Position numbers and translations under genes: made by a program
Notes under the pieces: generated by a model
Database searches by the model: none
What the model was told of the DNA's origin: nothing
Seen by the model: the letters and a program-made list of their open reading frames with translations, nothing else
Shown: piece by piece, positions 684-29,374 of the stretch
Numbering within the stretch: the first letter of the stretch is position 1
How the letters are laid out: each line of letters opens with the position of its first letter
Origin: Candidatus Woesearchaeota archaeon
GTDB lineage: Archaea > Nanobdellota > Nanobdellia > Woesearchaeales > JAIPIC01
Direction: 5' to 3'
DNA length: 43,224 nt
Assembly (NCBI GenBank): GCA_021734865.1
Contig: JAIPIC010000010.1
Location: 1 to 43,224 of the forward strand

Positions 684-1278
684 GTCAATATTTTTGTATC
701 CAGTATCTATGTTTTCTCTGTTCAGTATCTATGTTTTTTATTATAATAATCATATTGGTTATCTTATCAATTGCCTTACATGGGGTGTGATGGGTCTAAC
801 TACATGAATAATATCCTATGTGTTATTTCCTTTATAATTAGTATTTTATAATGTAAATTTATAATTTATTCAAATTAATCATGAGGTCCTGTCTTGCTTA
901 TGGCCTGTCTTGCTTATATGTGTTAAATTAATATTCGATGATGCAGAAGTAAAATTTGATTGATTTCTTTGGCAGTATCAAACCCAAGATAGTCAAAAAT
1001 CTGTGCTGATAATTTTGTTTTCACTATTGTTTATTCAAGAGACATTCAGTACTTCAATCAAAATAAATCTATTTTATTATTAGTATTATTTATTATATAA
1101 TTAGTAATTTTTATAATTTAAATGGTTCTTTTAATTATATTATTAATCTTCTTGGTTTTATCAGTATTGATGTTTCTATTATCTGGATCTTGATAGTATA
1201 GGAATACGACCCCATAATCTAATATTATTATGGAATTTCTATTAAAATTGTTAAAATTTTACATTAAAATTAGAAATC
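684..1278. other. noncoding AT-rich spacer
   Basis: No gene of credible length or composition is seen on either strand. It holds a 14-bp direct repeat (cctgtcttgcttat) at 888-901 and 904-917, separated by 2 bp. It also holds an inverted repeat ccataat/attatgg at 1212-1218 and 1227-1233 upstream of the promoter. No tRNA-like cloverleaf or rRNA segment was recognised. It probably contains upstream regulatory DNA for the giant-gene operon. Confidence 0.6.
888..917. repeat. 14-bp direct repeat pair
   Basis: cctgtcttgcttat occurs twice in exact form with a 2-bp gap, giving a 16-bp centre-to-centre spacing. It stands out in otherwise AT-rich noncoding DNA. It could be a pair of protein binding sites or a small local duplication. 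Confidence 0.7.
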
Positions 1279-1316
1279 TTTATATATGGGTTTATTTTTG
1301 ACTCTCCTTATATACA
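1279..1316 (+). promoter_or_regulatory. two candidate archaeal TATA boxes for the giant-gene operon
   Basis: tttatata-like boxes lie at 1279-1287 and 1308-1316 (ttatatac). With the usual ~25-nt archaeal spacing, the first would start transcription near 1309, leaving a leader of about 35 nt. The second would start near 1338, making the mRNA almost leaderless at the ATG at 1344. This assignment is by position and sequence only. Confidence 0.5.
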
Positions 1317-1343
1317 CATTTGTACATTAGGGACTGACATAAT

Positions 1344-1880
1344 ATGGTTCATAGTAATCTAAGTGAAACGAGTATTTCTAATTTAGATAGGGATCTGGAT
1401 GCTATCAATGTCTTTGCATCAAACATTATGGATAAGTACGGAATGACCTATGATGATTTATTGGTTCAGATGGCGACCCTGAAGTCTCACGCAAAGGTAT
1501 CTGTTGTACCTTCTTGTATCTTCCGTAATAATTCTCTTGGTTTTATGGAAGCAGTAACAAAATATCTTAAGGAAAACTTATCCATGAAGTATGTGAAAAT
1601 TGCAAAGCTACTCAACCGGAATGAGCGGTCTGTATGGATAACTTACAACAAGGCAAGAAAGAAACAACCAAGGCCGTTTACCCTTGACAAACCTAACATA
1701 TGGATACCAATATCTGTTTTTAAGGATGCTGGTCTTGGACCGCTTGAAAGTCTAAGCATATATCTTAAAGACAAGTTAGATATGGAGTTTATAGACATAG
1801 CCAAACTAATTAACAGAAATAACAAGAGTATTTGGGCCTGCTATAACAAAGGGAAGAAAAGAGCAAAAGAGGGTCTATGA
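1344..1880 (+). CDS. tandem helix-turn-helix (sigma-70 region 4-like) DNA-binding protein
   Basis: This 178-residue protein has an N-terminal acidic helical part (residues 1-50) and two copies of a ~55-residue unit at about 53-107 and 119-173. Each unit reads roughly: P-x-x-x-F, a short helix with YLK, a hydrophobic spacer, then I-A-K-L-(L/I)-N-R-N-x-(R/K)-S-(V/I)-W-x-x-Y-N-K followed by a basic tail. The last part has the look of a helix-turn-helix of the sigma-70 region 4 class, with the recognition helix at NRNxxSVW. Two copies in one chain would bind a direct repeat or act as a pseudo-dimer. The stop overlaps the start of the giant gene (ATGA at 1877-1880), so it is translationally coupled to it and probably regulates this operon. 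I do not know a named family. DNA binding is an inference from the motif. Confidence 0.8.
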   Translation: MVHSNLSETSISNLDRDLDAINVFASNIMDKYGMTYDDLLVQMATLKSHAKVSVVPSCIFRNNSLGFMEAVTKYLKENLSMKYVKIAKLLNRNERSVWITYNKARKKQPRPFTLDKPNIWIPISVFKDAGLGPLESLSIYLKDKLDMEFIDIAKLINRNNKSIWACYNKGKKRAKEGL

Positions 1881-4800
1881 TGGATAGGTTAAATAAATGC
1901 GGAAAATTATTAATGGAAAACCTTCCTGTCTTTGCCATAGCTCTCACAGTAATCCTTGCAGCTCTCTTAATATACAATTCTGAACAGCATATAGTTTTAT
2001 CTGAAGAAATAAACATACCTAGATTGATTCTTAATACCTTAGAAGGAAATATTACTATTTCACCATTAGCAGATACTTCCAACAGTATTGTCTGGCTGAG
2101 GATGGATGGTCAATCACAAAGTCTTCCAATTCAGACCTTTGTTAGAGAAACCGCCTATGAAAGGACAGGTTACGGGTATTTTCCCAGTAATGGATATGGT
2201 TATGGTGACAATATAATTATTGATCTGTCAAAATATAATCTTTCTTTATCTGAAGAAGGTACATATAATATAACCATCGAGATCGAAAAAGAAAATCTCA
2301 TAATATATAGCAAATCATTAGATGTAGAAATTTTTCTAAATCGTCCCCCAATATTATTGATGCCCATCGCTGACATCGTACTTGAAAGAGGCAACACAAC
2401 CCAAATAAATATAAGTGAATATTTTGATGACCCTGATTATCAAAAGCTTACTTTTGGATATCTTCCAGTTGATAATATCTCAATATCCACAGAAATAACT
2501 GCAAGTGATTCTGAAGATGAGCTTCAACAAAATTCTGGTTTAATGAATATTGAACCAGATCCATGGTTTACTGGAACAAGGTATCTAAGATTTTATGCAA
2601 GTGACAGTCTGAATAAAACTTATACAAATAACATAACCCTAACCATAATAGATTCCAATAGAGATTCAAATGAATCATTAATACAATTAAACGCAGAAAT
2701 TCTTAGACCAGTGAAGTGGATTAAGAATGTAAATATCACAACAGAAGATATGGTCGGAGAAATCAGTCTGAATATATCATTGCCTAAAGATGCAACAAAA
2801 ATCATCGTAGTAAACAAAAGTAATAATGATGTGACACACCAAGCTGAGGTTAGAAATGTAAGTAATAGAACCCAAGCAACAGTCGAAAAGAAATTCTTAT
2901 GGTTTAAATACAATGACACCGAGATAGTCGAAAATGTGACTGGAATGATCGTAGAACTCAATGAGACTATCGATAAACGAGAATCTTTGGAATACAAAGT
3001 TCATTATCAGACAAAAGCGCCTGAGATAATCGAAACAGAATCATCAACAGCTTCCACAACCCTCAAAACATGGAATAAAGAAGTAACAATTAAGTCAGAT
3101 AATGATTACCAAAATGTACTTTCTTATTCGAGAATAATAGAGACCCTACCTAAAAATGTTAAATTGTACTGGTCAGTAAATATAACTGACGAACGAATAA
3201 AAAACACAACCATATATAATGCCGTATTGTCAAACATGGGTAAAGACGACAATAAAATACATCAAATTCGCATAGATCAGATCCCAGAATTCAAAACCGA
3301 ATATCTTGATACCAACGGTAACGGATTAATTGATATGGTCAAATGGTATACACCACACTTATCCGAACAATTATTTGAAATCCTCATAACATTGATGGAT
3401 CTTTCTGTTAATTCCCAGATTACTCAACAAAATTGGACAATTATATTCAATACTTCACAACATCAATCTTCACTTGGCTTTAATGTGATCGGCGGATCAG
3501 ACGCATTATCTTTCAATTCCTTTTATTATTATGATGATACCTTATTAGGATGGTACCCATATACTGAGGGGTATTTGTTGCAGGGCAACAATTTGAGTAC
3601 AACATGGAGCGGGATTACACATTCTAAAGGAAAGATTGTGTACAACATTTTGGAAATTGGGCGATACAAAGTTAACGTCACATTTGATCAAATGTCTGAT
3701 GTGGCAGAAAACTTTGACTATTATACACAGATTCAGCCATTTGTGCTGAATCTGTCATCCCCAATTTTCAATTTTCAATTATGCTCATTTAACCATACTT
3801 ATTGGGAGTGTAATCCAACAACAACTGATATAGGATATTACGGTGAAAACTCCACTTTAGATGACAATGAAACACAAAAATATCTAGTTATCCCAAAGAA
3901 CTCAACAGTAACAAATTATAGTATGACGATTGAACCAATATCAAATACTTCGATACAGAGTTTCAGTTATACAAGTACCTTCAGTGATACGCATATTGCC
4001 GCAGGAGATTTGTCATCTGCAACAAATGAAGAACTTGTGATCTCAACGGGAAATGAATTGAGAGTAACATCAGCAATCAATAATTCAATATGGAATAAAG
4101 TTCTGGATGAAACAATCAATGATGTGGCAGTTGGTAATATCAATTCAACATCCCCATATAGTGAAATTATGGTCGCTACAGACAGTTATTTGTATTTCTA
4201 TTCTTATGATGGAAACCAGATCCATAATATTTCCAATTATTTTACCAAATTATCTGTTGAACGTGTGAATCTTCAGTACACCGACTATGGCGAACAAGAT
4301 GGTAATTTTGAATCCATGGGCCGTATTTCCGGCAATGGTATGAACCAAACACACATATTAGATTATGAATTTGGAGATTTATCTAGTAATGATTGTTACA
4401 TTACATCGCCATTGAATTATGGTGGTTCAACCTCTGCCAATTTAACCTTTATACTTAATGGAACTTTGTATGATGTTGATGAGAATTATCTCGAATACAA
4501 TGATGAAAATAATTACAATGGAAGTGATGGGACTTCAGAAGATATGCTATGCATTGGCTGTCAAAATATAACTAAAAACGTTTTTAATCTATGGTTTAGT
4601 ATTCCACAGATTGATGCCGAAAGTTGCTACTTGGAATCAGCATTAAGTTTCTTTGGAAGTAAAGCTGGAACATTGAAATTTAACCTCAGCAACAAAACAT
4701 ATACTGTTGACACAGACCAGTTGAGTGCAGAAGTCTCATACACACAATATCAAAAAGATGATAATGAAACTAATTCATTAGGGAATATTGGATTCGAAAA

Positions 4801-7800
4801 TAATGCACAATCATATAATATACCTTTTGACATGGGTGATTTAACAGATTACATGTGTTACATAGATATACCGTTAAATTTCCATGGTTCTAACAATGGT
4901 AATTTAACCTTTGAACTCAATAATGTTAACTATGACATTGATGATAGCCAGGTATTGGAAAAAGATGAGTTTAATTATAATGCGACTGACTTAATTGTCG
5001 ACAATCAGTATGAGATTGGTACTACTCGTTATTCTAATGAAACCTTTAATCTTTGGTATAACCTATCGAATATTTCTGCAGACAAGTGTTATATTAAATC
5101 AGCGCTAAATTACTTTAATACCAAAGCTGGCGATCTGAAGATTAGTCTGAATGGTACTGAGTATGATATAGATGAGAACCAGATTGATGCTAATAGTACT
5201 CTGGAATACTCAATCCAAGGTTCTGATTTTAGTCCAGATTACTCACAGAAGATTGGGGTGGCTAATGACCAATTAAGATTTAACTTAGGATTTGATATGA
5301 TAAACCCAGTACCCGCAACAACCTGCTACCTCAAAACTGCTATCTGCTACGAAGGACAAAAAAATGGTAATTTGACATTTGATGTAACAAACTCACAAAC
5401 AGGAAGAATTTACCAAATTAATAAAAATCATATTAATTCTGCTTGTACTGAAGATAATTCTTCCTTCAACTGGATATATACACCAATGGACTGTTCGGAT
5501 ATTCAACAGAACGAAACAGTGAGAACCACCTGCTCTGGATGTGATACAAACAATCATTACAGGATTATGGGCGATAACGCTACAAATACCCCATATAGCT
5601 TTTATTGGGATGGTTCCCAAATGTATTATCCTGATTATGATTACATGATATCAGTATATAGTAACTACAGTAAGAATCACGATTGGATTGATACAGAAGT
5701 TAATTGTTCAGATCTTGCACAAAATATGAATGTAACCTTCAAATGTGCAGGATGTAGTGATACTAACTTCTACAATCTGATGACAGATACAAATACATCT
5801 GGTAATTCCTATTATTCAAATATTTCAGGTTCATATCTGATTTCAGAATATGATCATATGATCTCTGTTTACAGCAACACCTCATTTTCGAATACCAATA
5901 TAAGAACAGTTGTGGATTGTGAGGATTTAGATCAATACAACACAGTAATAGTAAATTGTACAGGATGCAATAGTACAGATTATTATAATCTAATGCAGGA
6001 CAGTAGTACTTCAGGTTCATCTTCATGGTATGATGGAAGCAGTTGGTCTTCTCATCAAGATAAGGACAATATCATACGCATGATAACATTCAACCAAAAC
6101 TTTGAATGGATCCCCACTCCTATTGATTGTATAGATATTAATCAGACAAAAAACTTGACTTACTGGTGTGAGGGTTGTAATGATAGTGAAAACTACAGAA
6201 TCATGCTGGATTCAAATTCAATGGGGCATTCTTATTATTATTCAGGTGATATCAATCAAATATCTGGTCATGATTATATGTCAAGGATATATATCAATAA
6301 ATCTCTTGAATACAGCTGGGTAAATACAGAAGTCAATTGTACAGATATTGGACCATACATCAATATATCATTCTTTTGTGATGACTGCAATGAAGAATCA
6401 TATTATAATGTATTGCAAGATACAAGTACTAATGGTAATTCATCATATTATAATGGCAGCCAGTGGGTGATTTATCCAGACAAAGACGATGGAATAATGG
6501 TCCGAACTGTTGGATTTACATCTTTATCTGAACTCATTGTTGCAGATGGTTTCAATAATCTTATGGTTTTTGATTCAGAATACAACCAAGAATGGAATTA
6601 CTCATTTGCTACAAGCATATACTCATTTGCTACAACCGATATTGTCAGTACTGATAATGGCAACGAACTTATTGTAGGTACTCTTGGAAAAGCATATATG
6701 CTTAATTCTAGCGGATCACAGAAATGGAATGTTAGCTTTGGATCTTATAAAGTCAATGCAGTTGCTGCTGGATATATTGGTGGACAGAACAAAATAATCC
6801 TAGGACTAAGTAATGGTGGGATTTATGAATGTGATGGTGTCGGTCAATGTACAAATGTATATAATTCAACTGCATCAGTTAAAAAAATAATTATTAATGA
6901 TGTGCTTGAGAAACAAGGTTATGAGATATCAATCTCTTTAATTAATGGTGTCCTATTAATATTGGATTCAGATTACACACTTCAAACAAGTTCCAAAATA
7001 AGTTCATCTATTGATGACTTGGAATCCCTGAATTTCAAACCGTTAACAGGCAATGAGATTGCAGTAGTCTCATCAGAGAGCCTAATACATATTCTTAATA
7101 TGCAAGAAACATCTGATCTAGAACTTACTGTTGGTGACTCACTAAACGTCTGGAATTACTCTGGAGTATTAAGTAGTACAGTAGTAGTAGACAATAGCAA
7201 TATTATTGATGCTTTCAATGAATACATCCTGACATGTACAGACAGCGAAAAGTTATGCACAATACCGATCAGCCTTAATTCATCATCACAGGGAAGAATT
7301 AATATCCGTAACCCTGTTCTTTCATATTCTTACAATGCCAGTGGAGAGATCTCAAGTGAGGATAATGTTTCCAAATATATGACAACTAACGATGTTTTGA
7401 TTAATGAACAAATTATGTACAATTCTATCAATATTTCTTATTTGACAAGACCCGCTGTTCCAATACATATTGGTTACATTGCTACTGATCAAGCGATAGA
7501 TTATGAGACCTATTTCAATGGGTATGCATGTGATGCATCCGCGCCATATGTCAACCTGGGGAACACAACCTTCGATGGAGAATCGATGGGTTGCGATCAG
7601 GATTACTATCTTTCAGATACCTATGACAAAAACTCCGATTACTTGTGGTACAATTCAACGCTTAAAGCGATTCCTGCTGTTCTTCAAACATCTGAAGATT
7701 TAATTAATGGAATTCAGACTTATAATATCACTATTTTTAGGAATACTACACATACAACGCAAAACCTTACTAATGTTACCATAAACATAACGATTGATGA

Positions 7801-10800
7801 TTCACAAAACACCGATTATATCGGATTGTATGTTGACTGGTTTAGTGATGGCAGTATTTACAATCTGTATCCATCAGAATTAAAAAACAATTGTAATAGT
7901 AGTGACCCAGAATATCAGATGATTAATATCAGTGATTATAATTTCTATGTTTGTGTCCAAGACATTAATAATAATTCCCGTCCCGATTTTATTAAATGGA
8001 AACAACCTGTATTAACTACCGTAAATCAGGATTTTAGTAATATATCTTATTCAATCAACTATTCTGTTAGAGAAACTCTAAACTTAAGCTTCCAGAATGA
8101 TTCAGATATCACCTTTAGAAATACAGTCATTAACTTATCTTCAATTGTATTCAATGACGACGGTAGTTATGGTAATTATTCTAATATGGACTGTTCTTGG
8201 TACATTAATGGGAACAATACACATAATTCATCTGTAATTGAAGGTGAATGCAATTATGTTTGGAACACTTCTTGTGGATCAGGCTATTTACCTAATACTT
8301 ATAATATTGAAGTAAGATTGACTGCAAATGACAGTTTTGCAGTTAATAATGCATCAGGCACATTGATTCTTATGGATTACTTAACAACAAACATGACATA
8401 TCCAAATGGGACAATCACGGGCCAGTATCAAGATATTGTCGGCCTGACATCAATAGTAAATGACAGTTGTGGAACACCAGACACTTCGTTAAGAAGTTAT
8501 CTCAAGTGGAGAGATAATTATGGTTGGGTAAACTCAGGGATAAATACTTCATACTACATAAATCGAGAAAGCGGCCTAATTGACTTCACTCAATACACTG
8601 ATTACCCATATTACATTCTCACAGAAAATGCAACAGGACGCATTATCCTTGATGATGTAATTAAAATAGTAATACTTACAGATGACCAATTTTACAGAAA
8701 TCAGTCAGTTACATCAGGAATGGATTTTACCATAAGAGCACAATTGTATACCGGTGATAATGTACCTGTCAATGACTCTGACTTAAATGATACAAATGAA
8801 TGGGCAAATTACAGTTGTAATTGGTCTGTTGATGGCGCATATATTGAAACAACAAACACTTCGATAAATGATGGTGTATGTACCTTTGACTGGAATGTTA
8901 ATTGTACAAACTATGATTTAGGTCAACATCTGATTGAGGTAGTCGTTGATAATACAACTGAGCTAACTTATAACTTCAGCCAGTCTGGTAATTCATCTCA
9001 AAATACATTCAGTCTATCTGATGAGTACGTAAATGTAACAATAATTCAACCTCTTGAATCTAATAAATATTACTATGGAGAAACAGTTATACTTAATTCA
9101 ACATTAAATGATAGTTGTGGATTATCCAATAAATCTTACACAATTAACTGGATATATAAAGACACAGACACTACAGTTAATCTTGGAAACGTAGATGAAT
9201 GGTATGTTGGAGCATATGCTTATGGAGAAGCAAATATGACCGCTAGAGCAACATATGATTATTATAGTACATCTGAAAGTACGACCTCAATTGCTGCATG
9301 GCGAAAAACAAAAATTAAATCACTGGATATCGTTGATTATCCTCCTAAAGATACAATTGTAGATGTTAATTGTTCAATTAATATTTCTGGATCTACAAGC
9401 AAAGCAGGATATTTAGTATCCTTGTTTTTGGATGAAAACTATACTAATCCAATGTCAGTGTACACTGATGAGTATGGAGTTGCAAGTTATGATTGGGATA
9501 CCACAGGGTATGCAGAAGGGCCTCATAGGTGGGAATGCAATATCAGTGATAATACTTCTATGTATTTTAATGCTTCAACAATCGAAGGAGAATATAACTT
9601 AGATAAAGTCGTAATTATACCAACTGATTTAATTGTTAATGCACATTTTATTGATAACCGAGAACTTAATCTATTTAACTGTGAACACTACATTCAAAAT
9701 AACACCGTTTTCCGCTCATCATCTGACTATTGGGATGAACCTGAAATTTTATTCTTAGGTGCAAATGTCTCAACAGTTTGGAATGCCTCAGGAGAACTTT
9801 ATCCGATGGATAATGTGACTGTACACTTCAATATTATGAATGAGAGTGGCTCAAACAAAGTCTATGAGTTAAATTGCACTACTAATTTGAGTGAGTTTAA
9901 TGATCGTGGTGATAATCCCATATCCTATGCATCTGAAAATCTTTGCGACCACTATTATAATGATTATGTTTGTATGGTTGAATGGGATGTACCTTTGACT
10001 ATATCCGTTGGTGAATATGATGTAATCATAAATGCAACAAAAGCAGACGGTTGGTCTTCAAATAGCATTACAGAACCTATTGTTGTAATGGGCATATTAA
10101 ATGTTACAATAAATGAAACTTTGGGCAATACAGAGGCTTGGACAGATGAAACTCTTAACTTGACCTCAATTGTTCATGATGATTCAGGGAATGTATTGAA
10201 CAACTCAAATGTATCTGTTGAGTACTATCTTAGGGGTTGGTATACATGTCCTGAAGATTATGCTAACATGCGATTAGCCAATATTTCAGGCAATGAAACA
10301 AATGGGAGCTTCTTTTACTCATGGGATGTTTGGACACATTACTTTATCGATGACTCTGATAAAAGAGATAGAAATTGGCAAATAACTGCTAAAGCATATG
10401 CTCCTTATTATGCAGCTGATGATCTTGTAACTCAGAGTAATCCAGAAAACCATCATTGTGAAGATTTCAGTTACAGAGATCATTGGGATATATCTGACCC
10501 CGAACTTTATCACAAAACTCAAGTTGAACTTACAGTTCCCAGTAGTAGCACCGCTGCAGTTAACCAGACAACCAAGCTAATAAATTTTACGTGCAGAGTT
10601 AATAGGGTTAAAGATTCTATGACTGTTTCATCAGGTTTCCCAGTTAATTTTATATGTAACAATTGTAATGAAACTGAAAATCAAGTACAAGTAGGAACAA
10701 CAGATCTTAATGGAGAAGCTAATTTTGTTATTAACTTTACCAATGAATCTGTTGGCGGTATGACTTACTATAATTTTTCTTGTGTATATGAAAATTATTC

Positions 10801-13800
10801 TTATTATAGAGTAAATGAATCAAGTTATGGTAATCATACACGTATGATCAGGATTGTAAATTACCTTGGCGCCGGAGAAGGTGAATGTGATTATGATTGT
10901 GATGCATTTGGTTCATGTTCAGATTCAACACCATGTGATGAAGGGGAAACTTGTTCAACCTGTCCATATGACTGTCATTTTGTAAATGGCACAAACAGAA
11001 ACTCAAATGATGATTTTGTTTATGGAAGTGTAGGGATTACATGGGACGATACATTAACAGGATGTGGATGCAACTATGAAGGATATGGAAGTTGCCAGCT
11101 TCAATATGAAGACAGTAGTTGCAGCGATTGTTATATCACAAATAACAATCGCACACCAAACGTAATAAATACGACAGCTTCAAAACTGTATGTTAAGAAT
11201 AATAGTGTTATAACTATTACCTCAAAAATACGCGATCTGGATAATGACTTGGATGATATATGGTTAACAAACAATGAAACTGGTCAATTTGTTGATTTCT
11301 TAAATACATCTGCAACTGGTGCTGCCATTGAATACCAAACCTACACTACAGGTGATGTTTTAGTCCAAGGAAATACATCATATCGTGTGTCTGCAAATGA
11401 TACTATGAATAATACTAATAATACAGAGGTTATAAGTATAATAATTGATGATGTGCTTCCCAATGTAATTAGATTTAATTCATCAGAATCTGATAATACA
11501 ACTCATGCAAATAACACTTACACATTCTTAGTTGAAGCAAATGATGATGATGACATTCCTGGTAATGTCACCTCTGTAAATATCAATGGGACTCCTATGA
11601 GCCTATACGTTGCAGAAGAAGATTTATGGAGATTAGTTTCAAATGCTTCCAGTTTTGGTTGTTATGATGAAGGAGTCTGCTTGTTAAGGGCATATATTTT
11701 TGATGCTCCTGGAAATAATGATACCATTGATTATACTCTTTTTGTGGATAATACTGCGCCTGTAATTAATCACTATAATTTTAGCAAAAACTATAATCTA
11801 TCAAGAAATGATGAAGTAGTCAACTTTTTTATTAATGCAACAGATGTAGATTCAATAGAAGGAAATATTTCATCATTGACTATTAATGGCACCTCACTAA
11901 CAATATTTAGTGACGACATTTACAGATATGACGGCTTATTGTCAACACTAGGATGTACAGAACAAGGTTTGTGCATTTTACAAATTCGTGCAGAAGATAG
12001 AGGTGGAAGTGTTGATACAGTCAGCTATGAATTATTTATAGATAATACTGTACCTGATATCTTTTCGATTGAATCAAATATTAGTGGTGGTGTAACAAGA
12101 AATGACGTACCAGTTAATTTTACGATCAATGCCTCTGATTTAGACTCTGTTATTGGTAATCTAACCAATGTTACAATAGAAAACGTAGCAATGAATTATA
12201 CTGGAGACAATATTTGGTCAATAGTTACTAACGTTTCTGCATTGGGATGTACTGATGAACTGGAGTATAATCTAACTGTATCTGTTGAAGACTTTGCTGG
12301 AAACACAAACGTCTCTTTGTACCCAATAATAGTCAATAACCAACTAATAGATATTGTGAGCAATACTCTTTCAAATACCTCATTTGACAATAGCCCATCT
12401 TTTTCGATTGAGACAACCGAAATTAGCACCTGTTATTACAGTCTGGATAATGAGACCTTTCATATTATGAATGTAACGGGAGATTTAATACACAACCAGA
12501 CACTGCCTGAGATGGAGATCAATTATACATCCATCCCAATAGCAAAATCAGGCTATAGCAATATTCAGAACTATAGATATATGGATAACAATTATACTCT
12601 ATATATTAACTGCACTGAAGTCTCAGGTGATAGTCTTACTAGAGATTATGACTTTGCATTAAAATCTCCCCTTAGAGATCGAGTTTTCTATGAAGAAAAT
12701 ACAACAGTAATACTCAATTTGACACTTGAAAAAGAAGGCCTTGACGTCAGTGCTGATTTCTCACAGCTAGATTCAGAGTATGGTCCTGCTCACAATGAAA
12801 CTGTTGTATCAACCGGAACCAACTATGTAATATCATACAATATATCAAATGACAACACACGTGATGCAGGTCATTACAAAATTTATGTTGTTGCAAGAGA
12901 TAACAACACAATTGATTCCAATACTTCAGTCTATATATCTTATATTAATAGTAATAATTGGACATGGGATATTGTGAACGATGCTTTGTCATGCAGGTCT
13001 GGTTCTCCAGGATGGTATTTTGATGAAGTGGATTGTCATTGGGATGCAGATATAAATTTTGCAGGTAAGAAATACGGCGGATCTCCACTTGAAGACCAAT
13101 GTACTGATGGTCTTGATAATGATGGTGGGTCAGATGTTGATTGTGCTGACATAGATTGTAGTGGTGTAAATTATGTGTGCAGAAATGATGACCTTATAGA
13201 ATCAGCTGTGTGGCTAGATGACCCCTGTGAGAATAACATTTGTCATATTCTCTCAAGTGTTATGGGCGGGACAGATGTATATTTTACGCAAAACGTAAAA
13301 CCTGGAGGAACATTGAAAGTATTGTTCTCACAGGCAGGTCTATCAGATAATTCAATATCTGTTCAGGTAAATTTCCTACCAGATAATTTTAGTGTTTCCA
13401 GTTCCACAACAACCATCTCCGACAACCTATCAACTAAGTTGGTAACATCTTCTTCATTAACAGCTAGAACAATTCCTGGAGAATTGTTTACTGGCGAGCT
13501 ATCAGAGTTATTAACAATAGATATACCTGACAATGATGATCTAATTGCAGATTATAGATCTGTAACAGTTTTAAGAAGCATAAATGATGGTGGAGGATCA
13601 GTTGAAAGTTTGTTTAACTTTTCAGTTACGTCAGGTGCAATAGAAAACGAATCTGATTATACCGAAAATATTGATGGATATGATGTTGCGAGTTACTGTA
13701 ATGATTCTATAGACAATGATTTAGATCGTAAAACAGACTGCACAAATGATTCTTTAACATGGGACACCTCTTGTAATAATAGTTATGTAATGTTTGATGG

Positions 13801-16800
13801 AAATATTGGTGTATGTCAGCTAGGTACTGAGCTAGACTGTTCAGATGGATTTGACAATGATCAGGACGGATTAGCAGATTGTCTTGATAGTGATTGTGCG
13901 GGAGAGATTGGAAATACTACTTTAGGTACCCTATGTTCACTCAATCGTGAAACTATTGGAGATGGTAATATTGGCATCTGTACAGATGGCTTTGATAATG
14001 ATGGTCGCAACTGGTATGATTGCAATCTCTTGGAGATTGAAAACGCAGCATACGGATATGACTATGCTGAATATGATTGTGCAGCCGCATGCCGAAGATG
14101 GGAACCATCAATTCCATTAACAGAATCTGTATGTAACGATTCAAAAGATAATGATATGGATGCATGGTATCCCAGTACTGCAGATTATCTGGATTATAAT
14201 TACTTAAGAAACCAATCTGGTGGATGGGACTGCAGATATACTGATTACGATGTTGACTGCAATAATACAGAAGTAGTATTTGGCAGTTCATCAGGAATCT
14301 GTCAACTCGGTGTTGAATTAAATTGCAGTGATGGTTTTGATAATGATAGGGATAGTAATCTGACATCAGATCCAGGATTAGACATAAGTGGAGCTGACTG
14401 TGATGATTATGATTGTTATTCAGTCACAGATGATTCAGGCAATTTCATATGCACAGAAAATGCTACTAACCAAGTCTCTCCTCAAGAAATTACATGTAAT
14501 GACAGTATAGATAATGATTTGGATGGCCTCTTTGACTGTACTGACCCAGATTGTTATGGGAAAGAAGGAACAAATGGAACCTGCCTTGAATACGAAATTT
14601 TCTCAATAAACGGCGGTGCATATTGTTCAGATGGATTTGATAACGACGGAGATGACATAAATAACACCAAAGTATTTTATGGAAACGGAACCGATTGCTA
14701 TGATGATGGTTGTTATCAGCAATTTGGCTCATGTCGTCCATGTTCATCAGTTGAAAACATTACTGCAGACTCGTGTGCTGATGGTTTTGATAATGATTAT
14801 GATGCATCTCCAGGTTCTAACACTACAGATTGTGCCGACCCAGATTGTGTTGGAAGAGTAGGACCTGCCGGTCAGATATGCGAACCTTCTGGAGAGACTT
14901 CCTGTACCGATGGTTTTGATAATGACGGAGACAATTTAATCGATTGTAATGATGATGATTGCGCATGCTATACAGATGAATTAGGGCCTGGACAGTGTAA
15001 AGATGGCTTAAATAATGATTTTTCAGGATTAATTGATTGTCAAGATTCAGAATGTGTCAACACATCATATTGTTTAGGTGCATCTAATACTTTCCCCAGT
15101 TTCAATTCAATTATGATAGGCAATGTTAATGTATTTTACAGCGACCTGATACATGTTGGAGAAAACATTACATTATATTATTATTCAACTGGTTTGTCAT
15201 CTGACAGTGTTACTTTATATGTTGGTACGTCCACATATCCTATCAATAGAATTGTTGATTCACCATATGACTCTTTAACATTCCAATCTTTCGTTGGTAC
15301 TGGTGGTAACAGTTTTGTTAAATCAGTGAATCAAAACAGTCTTCAATCTGAAGGGACAAATATCAATGGTTGGTTCAATCTTACACATAAACTTCAAGTA
15401 TCTGATACTGCTGATTTAGGCACATACACTTTTGAAGTGTACACTTCAATAGACCAGGCAAGTACTAGCCTCATTAACATCAGCATACTTGAAAATGAAA
15501 TTCCTACAGTAAATATTACATACCCTCTTAATGGAACAATAATAAATAATAGCCAATTCACAGCTTATGCAACAGCAAATGATAGTAGCGTATATGATTC
15601 AGGTATAGATCATTGTATGTTTAGGATTGACTCAGAATCATGGACAGATGATGATGATTGTGTCTACTCATACAGTGAAATTAGTGAGGGAGAACACTTA
15701 ATATCTGTAACTGCAATTGATGGAGCAGGTAATAATGCTTCAGTTAAAAACACAACAATATTCATTAACTTGACTGGCTCTCAGAACTTAAATATTACAA
15801 AACATTTTAACAATGTTCAACAAGAAATGAACTTGAATGCAACATTCACAAGTTATTATGGTTTCTTAGATAATGAAACCGGCTGTGAGGTTGTTGCTGT
15901 TGATTTAGAAGAGACAGAATATGTTATAGGTTCTATAGAGCTTAAATCAGATGCTGCTAACAATGCTACTTGTAATGGGACAATCAACTTTTCCGCATTG
16001 AGTTCAGGTTATTATAATTATTACCTCAGGGTAAACGACACTCAGGACCGAGTTATTACAAGTAATCAGGACTATTCTTATGTTTGTTATTATAAAGATT
16101 CAGAAGATTTTGAAGGGACAACTTGTAAAGACCAATGTGAAATCGATACCGAACCTCCAAACATAACAGGAGTATACATTAATGATTCAATTGTTATGAC
16201 CGACGCAGATATATTTGTCTGGGTTAATGTAAGTGATGAATCTTCCATTAGTTTGGTATCTGTTACTGCTGAAAGCCAAAATTTGAATTGGAATGGCTCT
16301 TTTTGGACAGGAGCAGTTTCCATCGATAATGACCTGTTTGTTAATGTCACAGTTATTGATATAGGTGGGTTCAATGATACCAATAATCTTACTGTTTACA
16401 CCATAGATGATCAAAGTCCGATTGCTCATACATTTATTAGTGATGATACTGATAACATCACACGTTCGTCAAAGCTAATCAACTTTACAGTGAATGTAAC
16501 TGATACGAATATTGCCAGGACTTTTCTGAATGGCACACCAATGAATCAATCCGGTGATATTTGGTATTTATACAGTAACACAACTGCACTTGGCTGTGAA
16601 AACGATGGGTTGTGTCTACTGTCAATTGTGGGTTATGATGAAGCTGATAACATAAATGTTTCTTATTATAATATCACAATAGATGATACCTATCCATCGA
16701 TTTCTTATCAAAATCCAACAGAACTGACAGATAATACTTTTTCAAGAGATTGGATTAGTATAAATGTCAGTGCAACAGATGTAATTGCAGGAGTTGATAC

Positions 16801-19800
16801 TATTATCATCTATTTATATAATGAATCACAAAGTTTAATAGACTCATCAAATCTTAGCTCAGATTTATTATTCTTTAATATTACTAGCTTATCAGATGGA
16901 GCATATTTCTTTAATGCAACAGTTAACGATAGTGCTGGAAATATTAATTCTGGACTTGCAACAAGAAATATCACTCTGGACACGATTCAGCCTGCAGTCA
17001 CAAATCCTGTTATCAATGATTCTGACTTGATATTTAGGATAAATGATTCTATAACAATAAATATTACAATTGTAGATATAAACATCGATAATGTAACAGT
17101 GTATAACCAGTCAAATGTAATAATGAGTAGGGTGGATTCAACCAACGACTGGACAGTCGAAACTGACGCTTATTCATTAGGATGTACAAATCTCTCCGGC
17201 AATTGTACGTTTTATTTTGTTGCAGTTGATAAAGCTGGCAATGAGAATTCATCTGAGAGTATTCAGGTAAGAATAGATCAAACAAACCCACAAATTTCTT
17301 ACACCACCGGTACAGAGACAAATGATACATACGCAAACCAGGACTGGATATATGTAAATGTAACATTGAATGCTGATAATATCAATATTACTTTTTATCT
17401 GTACAATGAGACAATGAATGTTATTAACTTGACATCGTTTGTTCCTGGAAATGATGATGAGAACACAAGTTTCAATTTTACCGGACTTGATAATGATAAA
17501 TATTATTATTACAGGGTGGCAGCTAATAATTATGTGGGCAATTCAAACACTACTGACTTATATAAGATAACACTAGATTCACTAACTCCTGTTGTCAATT
17601 ATCTTATAGTAAATGATTCAGATAATATCACACGATCTGATGCTCCCCTCAATTTTACTACTTCATTTATTGAAGTCAATCCAGAAAACGTAACTGTAAA
17701 TGAATCAACGATGTATCCTTATAATTCCACTTTGTGGTACACCATAAACAGTACAGGCGATTTTGATTGCACTAACGATGGAAATTGTACTTTCACAATG
17801 TCCATAGTTGATAAGATCGGCCATGAGAGTAACATGGACCTTCTCTTGTTTATTGATGACACAAAACCTGAAGTTACAGACTATTATGTAAATGATACTG
17901 ATATGATTGTAAAGAAGAGTCACCAAATAAACATCAATGTTACAGTTGTTGATCAGAATATTATGTCTGTTTCACTCTTTAATGAGAGCAGTCTTTCTAT
18001 GCATGCCATGGGTGAGGAAAATACTTGGGAAATAAACACAACTGCTGGATCTCTTGGATGTGATCAAGAAAATGGATATTGTACAATACACTTTGATTCA
18101 ACTGACTATGCTGGTAACCAGAATAATTCAATCAGTGTGCAATTGACTATTGATGATCTGGATCCTGTTGTTGATTATTCTTCTGGTACTGAAGAAACAA
18201 ATTCGTATTTTGATCGCGATTGGATTTATATTAATGTATCCATAACAGAAACAAACTTCCAAAATATTTCATATTATGTGTATAATTCATCCATGAATAT
18301 AATTAACTTTACATCATACAATGATAACATTACAAATATTACATTCAATGATCTTGACCTTGATATGTTATATTACTATAAAGTCCAAGTGCTTGACAAA
18401 GTTGGAAACTCAAATACTACTGAACTCTATAACCTAACATTAGACTCATTAACTCCCTTAATATATTCACCTGCTGTTAATGATACTGATAACTTGGTAC
18501 GTAAGAACGACTTTTTGAACTTTACAGTGACAGTGGAAGATCTTAACATTGATAATGTGACAATTGGAAATATGACATCAATTGATATGATTTATTTGGG
18601 TTCCAATATCTGGAGTGTTGGCACAACAGCAAATGATTTAGGTTGTACTCAGAACGATAGTAATTGCACTATATTTATTACGGCAAATGATTTGGCTGGA
18701 CACAGCAATAGTACAACAATCCAATTAATAATTGATGATAAACTACCACACATCCAATTTGAAATTCCAACTCAAGAAAATGGTATATATGTTGATGCCG
18801 ATTGGATATCCATAAACATTTCATATGTTGAAACCAATCTAAAAAATATAACTTATTACCTAATAAATTCGTCTAATGATGTAATAAATACGACTACCTA
18901 TAGTGATACGACCAGCATTAATTTCACGTCTCTTAAGAGAGATAGCTTCTATAAATATAATGTGACTATATATGATAAGGCTAACAACCATAATTCAAGT
19001 GACACATACAATATTACCTTAGACTCAACAACACCTCAAATAAACACTTTCATATCTAATGACAGCGATAATGTATCCAGATCTGACATTTTTATTAATT
19101 TCTCGGTAGTCTCAAGTGACACAAATATTGATAATGTTTCAGTCAACGGAAGCATCATGCAAAGACTTGGTAATAACTGGTTTACAATAAATAAAACAAG
19201 CGATTTTGGTTGTGGTACCAGCGATTCAGTATGTACACTATATGCAGTTGTATATGATAAAGCAGGCCACTATAATGAGACCTATTATAATATAACAATT
19301 GATGAAGAGGCACCTTACTTTAGTGACTTTTTAGTAAATGATTCTGATAATGTAATTCGGATCAATCAATCATTTAATCTGAATATCACAATCCATGATA
19401 ATAACATCCTGAATGCATCAATATCAAATCTGTCTTCTATTGAATTAGTCAGATTTGGCTCAACAGATATTTTTGGAATAAACAGCACTGCTAATGATTT
19501 AGGTTGTATACAAAGTGATAGCAACTGCACTTATACCTTTTATGCTGTTGATATGGCGAATAATGTTAATAATACACATACAGTCCAATTGACTATTGAT
19601 GATATAATCCCTCAAATCGAATATGCTGACGAAACAGTAGATAATTATACAAATAATGATTGGATTTTCATTAACGTAACAGTAGTTGACACCAATACTT
19701 TTAATACAAGTTTCAACTTGTATAATTCATCATTGGAATTAGTTTATCAAAATAATTTTATTGATGGCACATCCGAGATCAATTATACAAGTCTAGTTTC

Positions 19801-22800
19801 AGATATGATCTATTATTATAATGTCACTACGACTGACAAAGCAGATAACCAGAATTTCACCTCAACAAGGAATATAACACTGGATTCGACAAATCCAACA
19901 ATCACTGATATCAAAATTAATGATTCTGATCTACTTGTCAAAAAGACTTTTCCACTTCAGATAAATGTAACCATTAGTGAGACAAACCCATTTAATGTTT
20001 CTATTGGAAATGAAACAATAGTCCAGTTAACAAGAGTTGGATTGAGTGATACATGGTATACAGATACAACAGCAGCTGACATGGGATGCACTCAGATGAA
20101 TAGTAATTGTTCAGTGAGAGTCATTGCAACAGACATGGCAACAAACACAAATGACTCTGAAGTATTCCATCTGACTATTGATGATACATATCCTCAGATA
20201 AACTGGATCAGAAGTAATGATACTGACAATGTATCAAGATCAGATGCATTCCTTAATATTAGCATAAACATCACAGAAACTAATGTAAACTACCTTATAA
20301 TGAACTCATCTCAAATGGAAGGTTCACAAGAAATCTGGTATTCAATTAACACAACAGATCAATTTAATTGTAGCACAGATGAAAATTGTACACTTGAAAT
20401 AATCATCTATGATCTGGTTGGTAATAGTAACTCGTCAAATATTTCAATATTGGTTGACAATACTAGGCCATTTGTCTCAAATCCAGTGAACAATGATAGT
20501 GATAATCTTGTTGGTTTCTCTCAAGTTGTCCAAATAAATGTAACTGTTGAAGATAATAATACATACAATGTATCCGTTTCAAATAGTTCATCATTGTCAA
20601 TGTTACCAACATTAACAGATGATGTGTGGTCAATTGACACTAACTTATCTGCTTTGGGTTGTGCAAATGAATTGTACAATTGTACATTAAGATTTAATGC
20701 AATAGATAAAGCAGGTAACCAGAATGACAGTATTACAATGTTCATTAACACTGATGACGTACCCCCTTCAATATATCAACTTGAATGCAATGATTCTGAT
20801 AATGTAACAAGATCCGACGCATTGCTTAATTTTTCAGTAATAGTTGAAGATCCATTCCTGTATGGTGTCACTTTAAACGAAACAAACATGGGACAATTAG
20901 GTATTGTTTGGTATACACTTAATGACACATCTGACTTCAATTGCAATAATGATGGTCAATGTGAATTAACTAGCATAGCCACAGATATATTGTCTCAAAC
21001 AAACTCAACTAATTTTACTATCACAATCGATGATACCCCTCCAAGTGTAGACGATACTATGATCAATAATACCGATTTCATACTAAAGAAAACAGATCTG
21101 ATCTCAATAAACATATCCGTAGTAGATGATAATATTCTATCAGTATATGTACAAAATGAAACATCAATTCCGTTGGTTCATTCATCACCTTCAATCTGGG
21201 AACTAAACACAAGTGGAGAAGATTTAGGATGTCAGCAAAATGACAGTAATTGTTCTTTGATATTTACTGCAATTGACTTAGCAGGCAATGCCAATCAAAG
21301 CCATCTGATACATTTTACCATCGATGATGTGGCTCCTTCGATATATCAATTAGAATCAAATGATTCTGATAATGTGTCTAGGTCCGATGCAATGCTTAAT
21401 TTCACATTGATTGCGACAGATACCAATATTGATAATGTCACTCTAAATGATTCATTAATGGGTGGTGGTATTTCAAATTGGAATCTACAAAGTAATTCCA
21501 GTGATTTTGGTTGCGATGCAAGTGGGTATTGCATCCTTCAAGGGTTTGTTACTGATAAAGCAGATAATACTAATTACACGTCATACGAATATATTATTGA
21601 TGATTATTCTCCTCAAATTAACTTCAGTGGAGATACAGAACAGACTGGCGTATATCTTAACCAGGATCATATATATATGAATATCACAATAACTGAGTCT
21701 AATGAATATTATACCCTCTTTTTCTTATATAATTTGACCAATCAGTTAGAGAACGAAAGTGGCTATGAATCAAACAGGACTCATAATTTTACAAGTTTGA
21801 ACAGCAATATGGCCTATTTTTATAATGTATCTGTTTATGATAAAGCTGGGAATTATAATTCAACAGAAACAAGGAACATAACACTTGATTCAACTAATCC
21901 TTCAGTTGAGAATGCTACTATAAATGACACTGATAATATTGTAAGAAAGTCTGATTTAATTGAATATAACATTACATTGACGGAAACAAACATAGAAAGT
22001 GTTATTGTTAGAAACCTGACTAATGTATCAATGTCACAGGTTGGTACAACAGATATTTGGACTGTTACCACCAACGCTTCAGATTTAGGCTGTACGCAAA
22101 ATGATGAAAACTGCACTATTCAGATAATTGCAAGAGATCTGGCTGGAAATGTGAATGATTCTGTCAAAATCCAATTAACAATTGACGATGTCTCACCTGT
22201 ATTATCCAATTTTATATCAAACGATACTGATAATATCAGCAGATCCGATGTTCTCCTAAACTTCTCATTAACGGTAGTTGAAACCAATATTGATAGTGTA
22301 ACAATGAATGGAACAGTAATGAACCAGCAGGGTAGTGTTTGGTCAACCCTTAATGCTTCAGATGATTTTGGCTGTTCAAATAACAATGATTGCATACTTC
22401 GAGTAACAAGTGTAGATAAAGTTGGTCATTCTACTTTTATAGATACATCAATTACTATTGATGATGATGCACCATCATTGATGGATGCACAAGTGAATGA
22501 TTCGGACCTACTTGTAAGAAAAATTGATGAATTGTACATTAACCTTACTGTAACAGATCTTAATATTAAAAACGTAACAATAGGAAATGGTTCTGTTGTC
22601 CCTATGAATCGTGATGGATTGTCAAATCATTGGGATATCACTACCACTGCTCAGAATCTTGGCTGTACAGCCAGCAATTCAAAATGCATCTTAAGGTTTA
22701 ATGCATTGGATTATGCTGACAATGAAAATAGTTCATACTCTATCGAAGTTCAAATTGATGATCTCCACCCTTCATTAAATTTCACTGCAAGGACCCCTGT

Positions 22801-25800
22801 CAATGACAGTTACTATAATCAAGATTGGATTTTCATTGAAGTAAACATGACTGACACAAATGAGAAAAACATAACATATTATCTTTATAATTCTACAAAT
22901 CTAATCAATGCAACAACAACAGATAATAATACCGAATTAATCAACTTTACAAATCTTGACGAAAATGCCTACTATTTTGTGAATGTTACAACAATAGACC
23001 AAGCAGGCAATACTAACAAAACCGAGACAAGAAAAATCACATTAGATAATATAATCCCAATCATATTAAACCCTAATGTAAATGACAGCGATCTATTTGC
23101 GAAAAAAGGTGCAGTACTAAGGTTTAACATATCTGCATCTGATACTAATTTTGCAAATATCACAGTAGGTAATGAGACCATGTTGACAATGATAGATGGC
23201 GTTCTGAATGAAAAATATAGGACTGCAACACCTGATTCACTAGGTTGTGGTGCTGATGATGGTTCTTGCATAATACATTTCATAGCACAAGATAAAGCAG
23301 GAAATACTAATGATACTCATCAGATTGAGATTATTGTTGATGATATTTACCCTTCAATCCTAACATTATCTGTGAATGATTCAAACAACGTGATTAAATC
23401 AAGTCAATCATTAAATTTCTCAGTCATTGCAACTGATACCAATATTGAGAATGTAACAATGCGTGGTAATGGGAGAATCATAGAGTTAACTCAATCCGGT
23501 ACTATTTGGTCTTCAATTAATTCTTCAAATGAACTAAATTATACTACTGATGGAGTTTATAGAATTAATGCAACTGTAGTAGATATTGTAGGCCATACTA
23601 ATATTACCTCCTATCTTTTTACTGTTGATAATACTAATCCTTCGGTATCCAATGAATACGTTAATTCGAGCCGGAGAGTAGTTAAGAAAAGCAATGTACT
23701 TACATTCGCAATTGATGTTACTGATAATAATATGGATGCAAGTAGGGTTTACCTCGGAAATCAGTCAATGGAGCATATGGTACAATTAATCGGTAACACA
23801 TTTGCAAGAACAACAACAGCACAATCTCTCGGATGTATTCAGAACAACAGCAACTGCACAATCTTTTTCAAAGCCTATGATCAGGCAGATAATACTAACT
23901 CAAGCACGTATATTGAATTAACAATTGATGAGTATTCACCAAGCGTGCATAATTTAGTTTCAAATATAACCGGAAATAGGATTAATCCAAATTATGTAAC
24001 AAATTATAGTGTTAATTCAACAGATATTCATATCCAGAATGTTACGCTAAATGGTCATCCCATGAATCGCTCAGGAGATATTTGGATATTAGAAAACACG
24101 AGTTCAAACTTAGGTTGCGGTGCAGATGTAACAGATCTTGTCAATTGTACTTTGACAGTTCAGAGTACAGATAGTGTTGGAAACATTAATACTACAAATC
24201 TTACTATGTTCATTGATAATGTAGGTGTATTACTAACGAATCTCAATGCTACTAATGCACTTGCTGGATCAGCTGAGTACAATTATCTACCCGTAGTCTT
24301 CCCAGATACTGTAGTGATATGGAACATATCTGCAAATACGACTGACAATGATAATTTTACGATTTACTTGACATCAAATTCAACGTCTTGGAACGGTACG
24401 GAACTTATAATGCCATACTCTGGTTATGATGACATATATACAATTAATGCAACACCTGTCGATTTCAATTTAACCAATGGGACTTATTATTATATTGCTA
24501 CGGTTGTTGACAGCGTTGGAAATGAAAATTCTACATTCTTTGAAGTATTGGTAAGAGATGAACTTCCAAGTGTATACAATATTTCAGCTAACAGATCGAA
24601 TCTCGAAGTTAATACACCTGTTGGCATTAGATTCAATGCTAGCAGTACAATTAGAGTGGCTGAAGTTTATGTAAACTTCAGTACTGCTGATTATTCTGAA
24701 AAATATGTCCGACCCAATACGGCCGGCATTCATGAGTTTGAATACTACCCTCCAAGAGCAGGATATTATAATGTTTCCGTAGTGGTCAGAAATGTTGCTG
24801 GATCTGAGAATATGCAAGCTCTAGAAGAAGGTCTCTTCTATGCAATCGGTAACACCAGAACAAGCATAGTCCATTCAAATATATCATTAAATAATGATAC
24901 GATGTATGTATCAGAAGAAAATCGGACCTTTAGTAACATTTCACAAAACAATGAGGTTAGTTTCAGTATAAATATATCTTTTAGAAATACTGGTAATGTA
25001 ACGTTATACAATTCGTCAATAAGACAATTAGGCTATATTAGAGGCATTACTTATCTACCAGAATTACATCAATGTGGGAATCTGACAGCCAATTCAGAAT
25101 GTAAAACAACAATAAATATAACAATAAATGGGAACGCATCAGTCGGTGATCATGATATTACATCAATAGCATCATGGACTAACCCTGATTTGACATCTGG
25201 TTATGTAACAAATACTACATCAATAAGCATTGTTCCAAACCCAATTTTGAATGTTTTGGAAGAGACGATAAATATTACTAATATCAGATATCATCAAACA
25301 AGGAATGTTGCTAATATTACTCTTCATGCCTTTGGAAATACCGATTTGAATGATGTAACCTTCTCTCACGAAGGTAACTGTAATATTACCTTCGATCCTC
25401 AAAATATCTCGCGGATATCAAAAGGTGACTATGCAAAAGTGCAACTAAATGCAACATGTAGTGTTCTTGGTCTAACTAACACAACATTGTATATTAATTC
25501 TACAAGCAATTACACTTCAGATTATTATTCGGATGTTGTGTTTATTGAGAGTTCAGTAACAAACACTATTAATCTCAGTTTAATTGATCAATACACAGAA
25601 GATATTTATCGGGATGACCAAGATGGAATTCCAACGGTATTTAATTTGACAGTCCAAGCATCAATTGTTAACAACTCAATGACACAGCTGCTTGAAAATG
25701 TAACCGTCTGGTTTAGTAGTAATGGTGAAATCATTGGGAACTGTATTACTAACCAAACCGGTCATTGTGAATATAATCTGAACCCCGCCACTAATCAGCC

Positions 25801-28800
25801 AGTAGGTATTAAAGATCTAACCTTCTTTGCCAATTCAGAGAGTGAATACTATTTGAACTCTACACAGAAAGAGACTTATCTGACAATCAAAGCTTTCATT
25901 AATCCAGACTGGCAAAACCAGAATGTATCTGTCTCAATAAACCTGACATCTGATTATACATATCCGTTATTATGTTCAGTTAATGAAACATACAATGCTT
26001 CAAAAAGACTTTCAAATTACAACATAAGTCTGTTTGAGGTTTATCCTAGCACTTTTAACAAATCTGTATTTGATAAGAATAGTGGTTGGATCAACATAGG
26101 TCTTGGAGGAAATTATTCAATTACAGATTCAGGAATAAATATCACTACTAATACGACACATACTATCTCAAATATTACGCTCAATGAGATTCAGAATATG
26201 GATATATTAGAAGTCAGTGTACCATTCGTTTCACAAAACACTTACTGGTCACTTGATATTATAAATGAGAATGATTCGTCCATAACAATATTTAACTGGA
26301 CAAACCAATCATATGTCACTACCAATATTTCAGGTCATACAGTTAAAGGAGCATATTTTAAAGTCAACAGTACAGAAACAAACGTCGTGAAGCACATCCT
26401 TCTCGAAAAAATTGTCTTAATGGAAGAAGTAGTCTATACTCATACATATGAAATTGGAAATTCAACACCTTTCCAGAAAAACAATTATGAATTATCAGGT
26501 AGCTTGGATGAAATTACTTTATACAACCAATCGCCTGATTTTAATTCCAGTGGCTGGTTTATAACTGGAATAAATTCAACACTTAGTAATCATTCAAAAA
26601 AAGGTGATAGTAGCGTTTTGATAAACATGACTGAGTTTGAAGTTGGATCAGAAATTCGTTTGATCGGAGATTTCTATCCTTACATTAATGTCTCTGGAGC
26701 AAAATACTTTGAATTCTGGATGAAACATGTATCACTTACAAATAATACTAATAATACCATCGTATTTGTTAACATCTCAAAAGCTAATGAGTCCGGTAAT
26801 TCTGTGTGTTCAGTAACTTATAATATATCAAATTTGAATTATACACAGTTTTACTCTTGGAAGTATTACCAGATACCAACACAAAATATTTCAACTGAGT
26901 GTGGTGAATTTTCCTATCTGGATAAAATTGAATACATTGTGAGAAATGAAGGGGATGATAAAATTGTCGATAATGAAATCTTCATTGATGAAATCGGAAC
27001 TCTCTATCCTCTAAAAACAGATAGTGAGGGGTATATGCATGTAGATTGGCATCCACCATCCAGTGGGTATCATAGGATTATTAGTAATATAAGTGGTTCA
27101 GAATATTATAACACTTCATCTGATTCGGATACTGTACTGATTTATGTTGAAGATTTGTTAAATGGAGCTGACTCTGGAGCCAGTTCTGAAGAAGTGGCTG
27201 CTGAAGCTGAAACGTCAGGAGAAGACACTGATTCCGGCGCAACCACCCAACCTGAGTCTGGCACTTCATCAAGCAGATCATCTGGAAGTAGTGGAGCTGG
27301 AAGTGCAATAGGATTATCAACCAAAGTGTGTGGAGATGGGAAATGCGATTCAGGCGAGAACGAATCCACATGTCCACAGGACTGTAAAAAACAATTACGT
27401 ATAGTCGAGAGTTGTGGGAATAACATATGTGATTTGGGTGAAAATATTCAGAACTGTCCGATGGATTGTGCAAACCCTCCTGTTGATATAGAGACAACAT
27501 TAGTAAATCCAGAACTTCATGAAGGAGAAAACAGGAACTATTCAATTGAAATCCTAAATAGCTATAATCAGACTATCAATCCTATAATTGAAATATTGGG
27601 AGATGAAATTAGAAAATACATTAATCTCACAAATATCACATTAACAATCCTACCAGGAGAAATCAAAAAGGTTACAATCCCAGTTGATATCCCTGAAGGA
27701 GAAGAAGCAGGAATATTCTATGGAGATATGATTGTCCATTTGGAAAACCGGAAAATAATTGAACCAATAACACTGTCTGTTTTAAAACAGAAAATCAGTG
27801 ACATTAAACTAACAGCTGACGTTATCACAAAGAAAATAAAAATTGATGATGTTCTAAAGATCTATCTTAGCGCATTTAATCCAAATAACCAGGGGGATAA
27901 TGTTACACTTGAATACAAGATCATTAACGTTGAGACAGGTAACACAATCTTTGCAAAGTCTCAAGAAATGTATTTAAAGGATTTGAAAGCCTTCACATTG
28001 GAACTTAATCTAATGAATATGACTGAAAATATGCCAGGATTCTCTCCAATAACTGGAAATGCAATACAGAACATCACCTTTAGCAACATGATCGAACCTG
28101 GAACTTATATACTGGAAGTGAGGGCAATATCTTCAGGTCGACAGGTTACTGTCTCTGGCACATTTGATATATTTTCAGAGTTCTGGACACGCCAACGAAT
28201 ACTGTTTTTCCTCTCCATAATATCACTGATATCCATAACATTGGTATCTACTTATGCTGTTGTTAGATACAAAAATATACAAAAGAACAAGGCAAGGTAC
28301 TTATTCCCACTTAGCATGGCAAAGTTGCCACAAAAAACAGATGATTCATTAGCTATCGGTAAGATTGCTGGTACAGCCAACTATACTTACATGAATCCAA
28401 CTTCATTAACAACACATGCACTTATTGCTGGAGCCACAGGTTCAGGAAAAAGCGTAACAGCATCTGTTATTGTTGAAGAAGTACTTGATAAAAATATACC
28501 AGTCGTCGTGTTTGATCCGACTGCTCAGTGGACTGGATTTGTAAAACCCTGTAAAGATGAAAATCTCCTAAAATATTATAAGGAGTTTAAGCTCAAAATT
28601 GAAGATGCTAAACCATACAAAGGACTCATATATGATGTGGATGATCCAAATATTGAACTGGAATTCAAAAAATACATCAATCCTGGAGAAGTTACTGTCT
28701 TCAACCTGAATAAACTGAAATCAGGAGAATACGATCAGGCTGTTAAACACATAGTTGATACAATCTTCAAGATTAAATGGGAAGAATCATCAAAACTCAA

Positions 28801-29374: not shown

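Follow-up and report, generated by a model that had tools for sequence, protein, structure and literature searches.

The stretch of DNA analysed here, called the window, is a contig of 43,224 nucleotides (C97), one of 99 contigs in a 2.01-Mb genome that is 87% complete. It is dominated by a single unbroken frame of 27.5 kb, whose 9,165 codons contain no N and encode a giant arm joined through a membrane segment to an ATPase (Table 1). The frame cannot be chance, because the probability of meeting no stop in 9,165 codons, computed from the base composition of the window, is ∼10^-308; codon-position GC is alike across all three thirds of the frame. A misread frame or an artefact of assembly is scarcely credible. 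Metagenome assemblies can mis-join repeats, and a related 15,809-aa frame on contig C41 of the same genome contains a 16.6-kb run of N, but the window frame is free of N, and the same architecture recurs in the genome's second N-free giant and elsewhere, both in dozens of further genomes and in that of SG9, which is complete.

Table 1. Coordinates of the genes and features of the system in the window.
Feature	Position	Strand	Remarks
HTH gene, 178 aa, two sigma70-region-4-like repeats	1344..1880	+	stop overlaps the start of the giant (ATGA)
Giant arm-TM-ATPase protein	1877..29374	+	9,165 aa, about 1,023 kDa, ATG to stop
N-terminal membrane segment (predicted), signal peptide or anchor	1919..1975	+	residues 15-33
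N-terminal head, all-beta	1973..3457	+	conserved among the genome's three giants
Region with most of the 34 recognised 98-aa Ig-like repeat copies	11156..25186	+	residues 3094-7770
Two CGxxxCxxGENxxxCPxDC motifs	27329..27469	+	ahead of the membrane-proximal domains
Membrane-proximal beta-sandwich domains	27470..28186	+	conserved family-wide
Second membrane segment (predicted)	28199..28255	+	residues 8775-8793
HerA-class ATPase and C-terminal helices	28300..29371	+	Walker A 28430-28453, Walker B 28805-28834
Short-armed sister ATPase, up to 726 aa	29396..31576	+	signal peptide, short ectodomain, TM, ATPase
Coiled-coil partner protein, 331 aa	31573..32568	-	IGEL-type motif; convergent in the window

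Two further giants of the genome carry the same C-terminal ATPase. That of contig C93 has 11,928 aa without N and is cut by the contig end. In the C41 frame 5,549 residues (967-6515) correspond to the run of N, which leaves its length unproven, and we have rejected it as a record; the reading frame is the same on either side of the run. The three giants have the N-terminal head and the C terminus in common and differ in the middle. The ATPase family is present in 80 of the 353 genomes of the window's order, with relatives on contigs labelled Aenigmatarchaeota, Nanohaloarchaea, Micrarchaeota, Altiarchaeota, Pacearchaeota and Hydrothermarchaeum; labels of Omnitrophota and Heimdallarchaeota, on short metagenome contigs, may reflect mis-binning. 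The longest N-free frames of the family reach 12,145 aa, so that 9,165 aa is not exceptional.

The HTH gene that overlaps the start of the giant has a homologue in the same position at the C93 giant. We rejected it as a regulator dedicated to giants, because in other genomes its family, found in 64 of the 99 relatives searched, stands ahead of many surface genes; the next frame encoded a sequon-rich, probably exported protein for 15 of 20 sampled copies. A coupled regulator of surface genes is possible.

The arm and its topology

The arm has Ig-like domains: a 98-aa repeat can be recognised in it 34 times, and Pfam gives a match to Big_13 (E 9e-18). The N-terminal head is about 31% identical between the C97 and C93 giants, and its predicted structure reaches a pLDDT of only 67. 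The arm contains 517 N-x-S/T sequons as against 202 in shuffled sequences, or 5.9 per 100 aa where the C-terminal tail has 0.28, and is acidic (pI 4.05) where the tail is basic (pI 9.3). At the level of sequence, these contrasts show the arm to lie outside the cell and the tail inside; the motor in the tail has its motifs intact. The arm is probably N-glycosylated. Residues 15-33, after which no good AxA-type cleavage site was seen in the window giant, may serve either as a signal peptide that is cleaved off or as an anchor that stays in place, and the arm might have a tether at each end. A signal-peptidase site after the first membrane segment is not clear in any of the genome's three giants; the short sisters differ in this respect.

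Six motifs of the CxDGxDNDxDxxxDC type, probably metal-binding, lie within the arm at 13697-14960 (residues about 3941-4360). None was present in the four other giants examined.

The ATPase and its relation to SPEARE proteins

The C-terminal domain carries Walker A (GATGSGKS, residues 8852-8859), Walker B (LLVFDEVHRL, residues 8977-8986) and the motif REFRKWGIG (residues 9004-9012). An earlier note on this DNA had proposed a profile search of this domain as a test of its claim, and the Pfam search returned a P-loop ATPase, the DUF87/HerA central domain, above the cut-off (E 7e-12). The note's description thus holds: one 27.5-kb frame, two membrane segments, an extracellular-type arm and, joined to it through the membrane, a complete P-loop ATPase of the HerA class. 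The C-terminal 649 aa are predicted to fold with a mean pLDDT of 90.9, and HerA (4d2i) is the best PDB match by both fold and profile. The giant shares with HerA the ATPase fold and intact Walker A and B. It differs in that HerA has an N-terminal HAS barrel, for which Pfam gave no match on the N-terminal side of the giant's ATPase, where instead a TM helix and the giant ectodomain precede the core; no NurA gene was found beside it in the window. FtsK/SpoIIIE (PF01580) scored below threshold in the giant (16.7 bits; cut-off 24). Phage relatives were also considered and rejected: annotated phages gave no match, and PHROGs gave weak P-loop matches only.

The top NCBIfam match of the C terminus is CedD, at 48 bits, far below the equivalog cut-off of 600. 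In the crenarchaeal Ced DNA-import system, CedB and CedD are two paralogous, TM-anchored HerA/VirB4-like ATPases that have been proposed to co-assemble (PMC11868833). The window likewise encodes two TM-anchored paralogues of this kind, whereas Ced has no giant arm.

The joining of such ATPases to adhesin-like arms, which the earlier note had taken to be outside the norm, is a published architecture, and the ATPase family recurs in the 80 genomes above. SPEARE proteins of Nanohaloarchaeota have an adhesin arm, a TM segment and a cytosolic part, which was initially taken for a restriction enzyme (Hamm 2019, PMC6642349); a 2023 report (PMC10266531) instead identifies it as an ATPase resembling VirB4/TraG and notes another ATPase gene downstream. 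The window ATPase also matches the ResIII model of Pfam, which may explain the first of these readings. For SG9, the lengths given in PMC6642349 are 8,553, 655 and 3,315 aa; the frames found here are close to these, at 8,592, 677 and 3,488 aa. The ATPase of the 8,592-aa frame is 55% identical to that of the window (E 4e-136). An arm of thousands of residues, a TM segment near the C terminus, a cytosolic P-loop ATPase and C-terminal helices are common to SPEARE and the window protein, and a second ATPase gene (DUF87), of the kind reported in PMC10266531, lies directly downstream. This tandem ATPase is, however, a short-armed sister without PF03135, the VirB4 N-terminal domain, and the lineage differs, being probably woesearchaeal. 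Pfam found in the window arm neither a laminin-G domain (at E 0.01, a threshold at which a diverged copy may be missed), which belongs to the SPEARE description of Hamm 2019 (at least one per arm), nor a serine protease domain, which the original name implies and PMC10266531 disputes. By ATPase homology and architecture the window protein is of the SPEARE type, short of the full original definition. The arm-plus-motor architecture is therefore not new, having been described for Nanohaloarchaeota in 2019 and 2023. We found no earlier report in the literature of the features described in the next section, namely the coiled-coil partner, the short-armed sister found next to many long ATPases together with the concerted evolution of the two cores, and a long clade with a dead Walker B; the available text of PMC6642349 and PMC10266531 makes no mention of a coiled-coil partner gene.

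The reading published for Nanohaloarchaeota, in PMC10266531, is of a type IV secretion-like injector, in which the giant is a straw and protein effectors are pushed through it into a host. The second ATPase gene downstream speaks for it there, and a tandem ATPase is also present in the window. Nevertheless, we consider an injector unlikely here. VirB4/TraG ATPases belong with HerA to the common FtsK-HerA superfamily, but both fold and profile place the motor nearest HerA rather than VirB4. PF03135 was not found in the giant, in its short sister, in the 87%-complete genome or in the short partners of C41, SG9 and B1Br10, and the best candidate for a TrbL/VirB6 channel gene in the genome scored 16.8 bits against a cut-off of 25.9.

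The short-armed sister and the coiled-coil partner

Throughout the family, the only widely recurring neighbours of the giants are the sister ATPase and the coiled-coil protein. In the window the sister's ATPase core is about 82% identical to that of the giant. A tandem ATGTATAATCCT-type repeat (MYNP) occupies the start of its gene (29446-29505); where the gene truly begins is uncertain, and the length may differ.

Neighbouring long/short pairs recur in the family. In 12 adjacent pairs the ATPase segments are 56–99% identical and the roughly 245-aa membrane-proximal ectodomains 21–32%, and for most loci the ATPase tree places the long subunit together with the short one beside it. For SG9, B1Br10 and QJJ-5 the ectodomain tree joins long with long and short with short, while the ATPase tree clusters by genome. 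In AU tests on these three nanohaloarchaeal genomes, long with long was rejected for the ATPase (p = 0.008) and long with short for the ectodomain (p = 5e-8). By these comparisons the two kinds of subunit undergo concerted evolution in their ATPase cores and diverge in their ectodomains, a result shown statistically in Nanohaloarchaeota only; the window pair is compatible with it, its ectodomain tree being without resolution. The cores could also stay similar through shared selection, if both dock on one partner.

Homo-hexamers alone would give six giant arms per ring, with the short sister in a ring of its own and the similarity of the cores left over from recent duplication. We think this improbable. 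Local duplication would likewise cluster long with short in the ATPase tree, but among the six nanohaloarchaeal ectodomains the long and short forms predate the split of the genomes, so that recent duplication does not explain the cores. Single-copy giants do exist: many have no short partner within reach, and the Hydrothermarchaeum genome holds a single family copy of 10,846 aa, so a giant apparently can work without a short partner.

Further evidence comes from the catalytic motifs. Among 121 ATPases, 117 retain Walker A, Walker B and REFRKWG in intact form, and the remaining four are all long subunits in which the DE of Walker B has become DG. A wider sample contained nine long subunits without the Walker B glutamate (DG or DS), which form one clade (support 97). 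All nine of their genomes also hold an intact short subunit, and none of the 33 sampled long-only genomes has lost the glutamate (p 4e-5, a value that covers one event, since the clade represents a single loss and its nine genomes are not independent). A dead subunit could not run a ring alone, as homo-hexamers would require, and makes sense if it is joined to an active partner. Together, the pairing of short with long, the concerted evolution of their cores and the dead long subunits point to mixed rings rather than six giant arms, at least where a short partner is present.

These data also bear on the possibility that the protein is an adhesin whose ATPase ring serves mainly as an anchor, an assembly platform or a contact sensor and passes no substrate. 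No conserved channel, substrate or nuclease gene adjoins the family loci, and the long subunits of one clade are, by prediction, catalytically dead, both as expected of such a protein. We are doubtful of it, given the intact motifs of nearly all members and the intact short sister that accompanies every dead long subunit.

A homologue of the coiled-coil gene follows the ATPase gene in 61 of the 69 named loci with room for it, one per locus, always on the same strand and mostly less than 1 kb downstream; the convergent gene of the window is an exception. Of the 353 genomes, 80 have the ATPase and 75 of these also have the coiled-coil gene, which occurs in 14 of the 273 that lack the ATPase (Fisher p 1e-55). 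The similarity is unlikely to be mere coiled-coil composition, because there is one match per locus, at a constant position, and the IGEL-type motif is conserved among the homologues.

A possible contact machine

The explanation that we favour, evenly poised in our judgement between true and false, is that this DPANN archaeon encodes a cell-contact machine of the SPEARE type, with a mixed ring, a docked coil and translocation coupled to contact. A HerA-class ATPase would lie under the membrane, held by one TM helix per subunit, and carry an Ig-domain arm that reaches a partner cell. Most likely the ring would mix the two kinds of subunit, the short-armed ones making up the bulk of the motor and the giant-armed ones giving it a single giant arm or a few; the dedicated coiled-coil protein would dock on the cytosolic side. 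We infer the mixed ring and the docking from the pairing of the genes, their concerted evolution and their co-occurrence. Contact made by the arm may be linked to the ATP-driven movement of a substrate through the ring. Nucleic acid would be the likeliest cargo, since HerA and CedD, the closest motors, translocate DNA.

More tentatively, and with confidence a shade below even, we propose that the giants provide the arms in a membrane HerA machine that is hetero-oligomeric and has a dedicated coil partner, that gene conversion keeps the cores interchangeable within each locus and that in one clade the arm subunit is a dead scaffold driven by its short sister. If this is true, the number of giant arms per motor is set by the composition of the ring.

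How DPANN archaea grip other cells and exchange material with them is an open question, and the giants are among their largest genetic investments. The system is a defined module, made up of a long ATPase, in many cases a short one, and the coil, and one clade offers a natural pair of active and inactive subunits; it could therefore be expressed in pieces and tested.

Further genes for surface and membrane proteins lie beside this module in the window. A 1,390-aa surface protein (32766-36938, minus strand), which gave no confident Pfam match, has a signal peptide, a CGDGTC motif, a TM segment and a short cytosolic tail. Two adjoining transglutaminase-domain membrane proteins (816 and 697 aa; 38537-42956) follow a CorA-type transporter.
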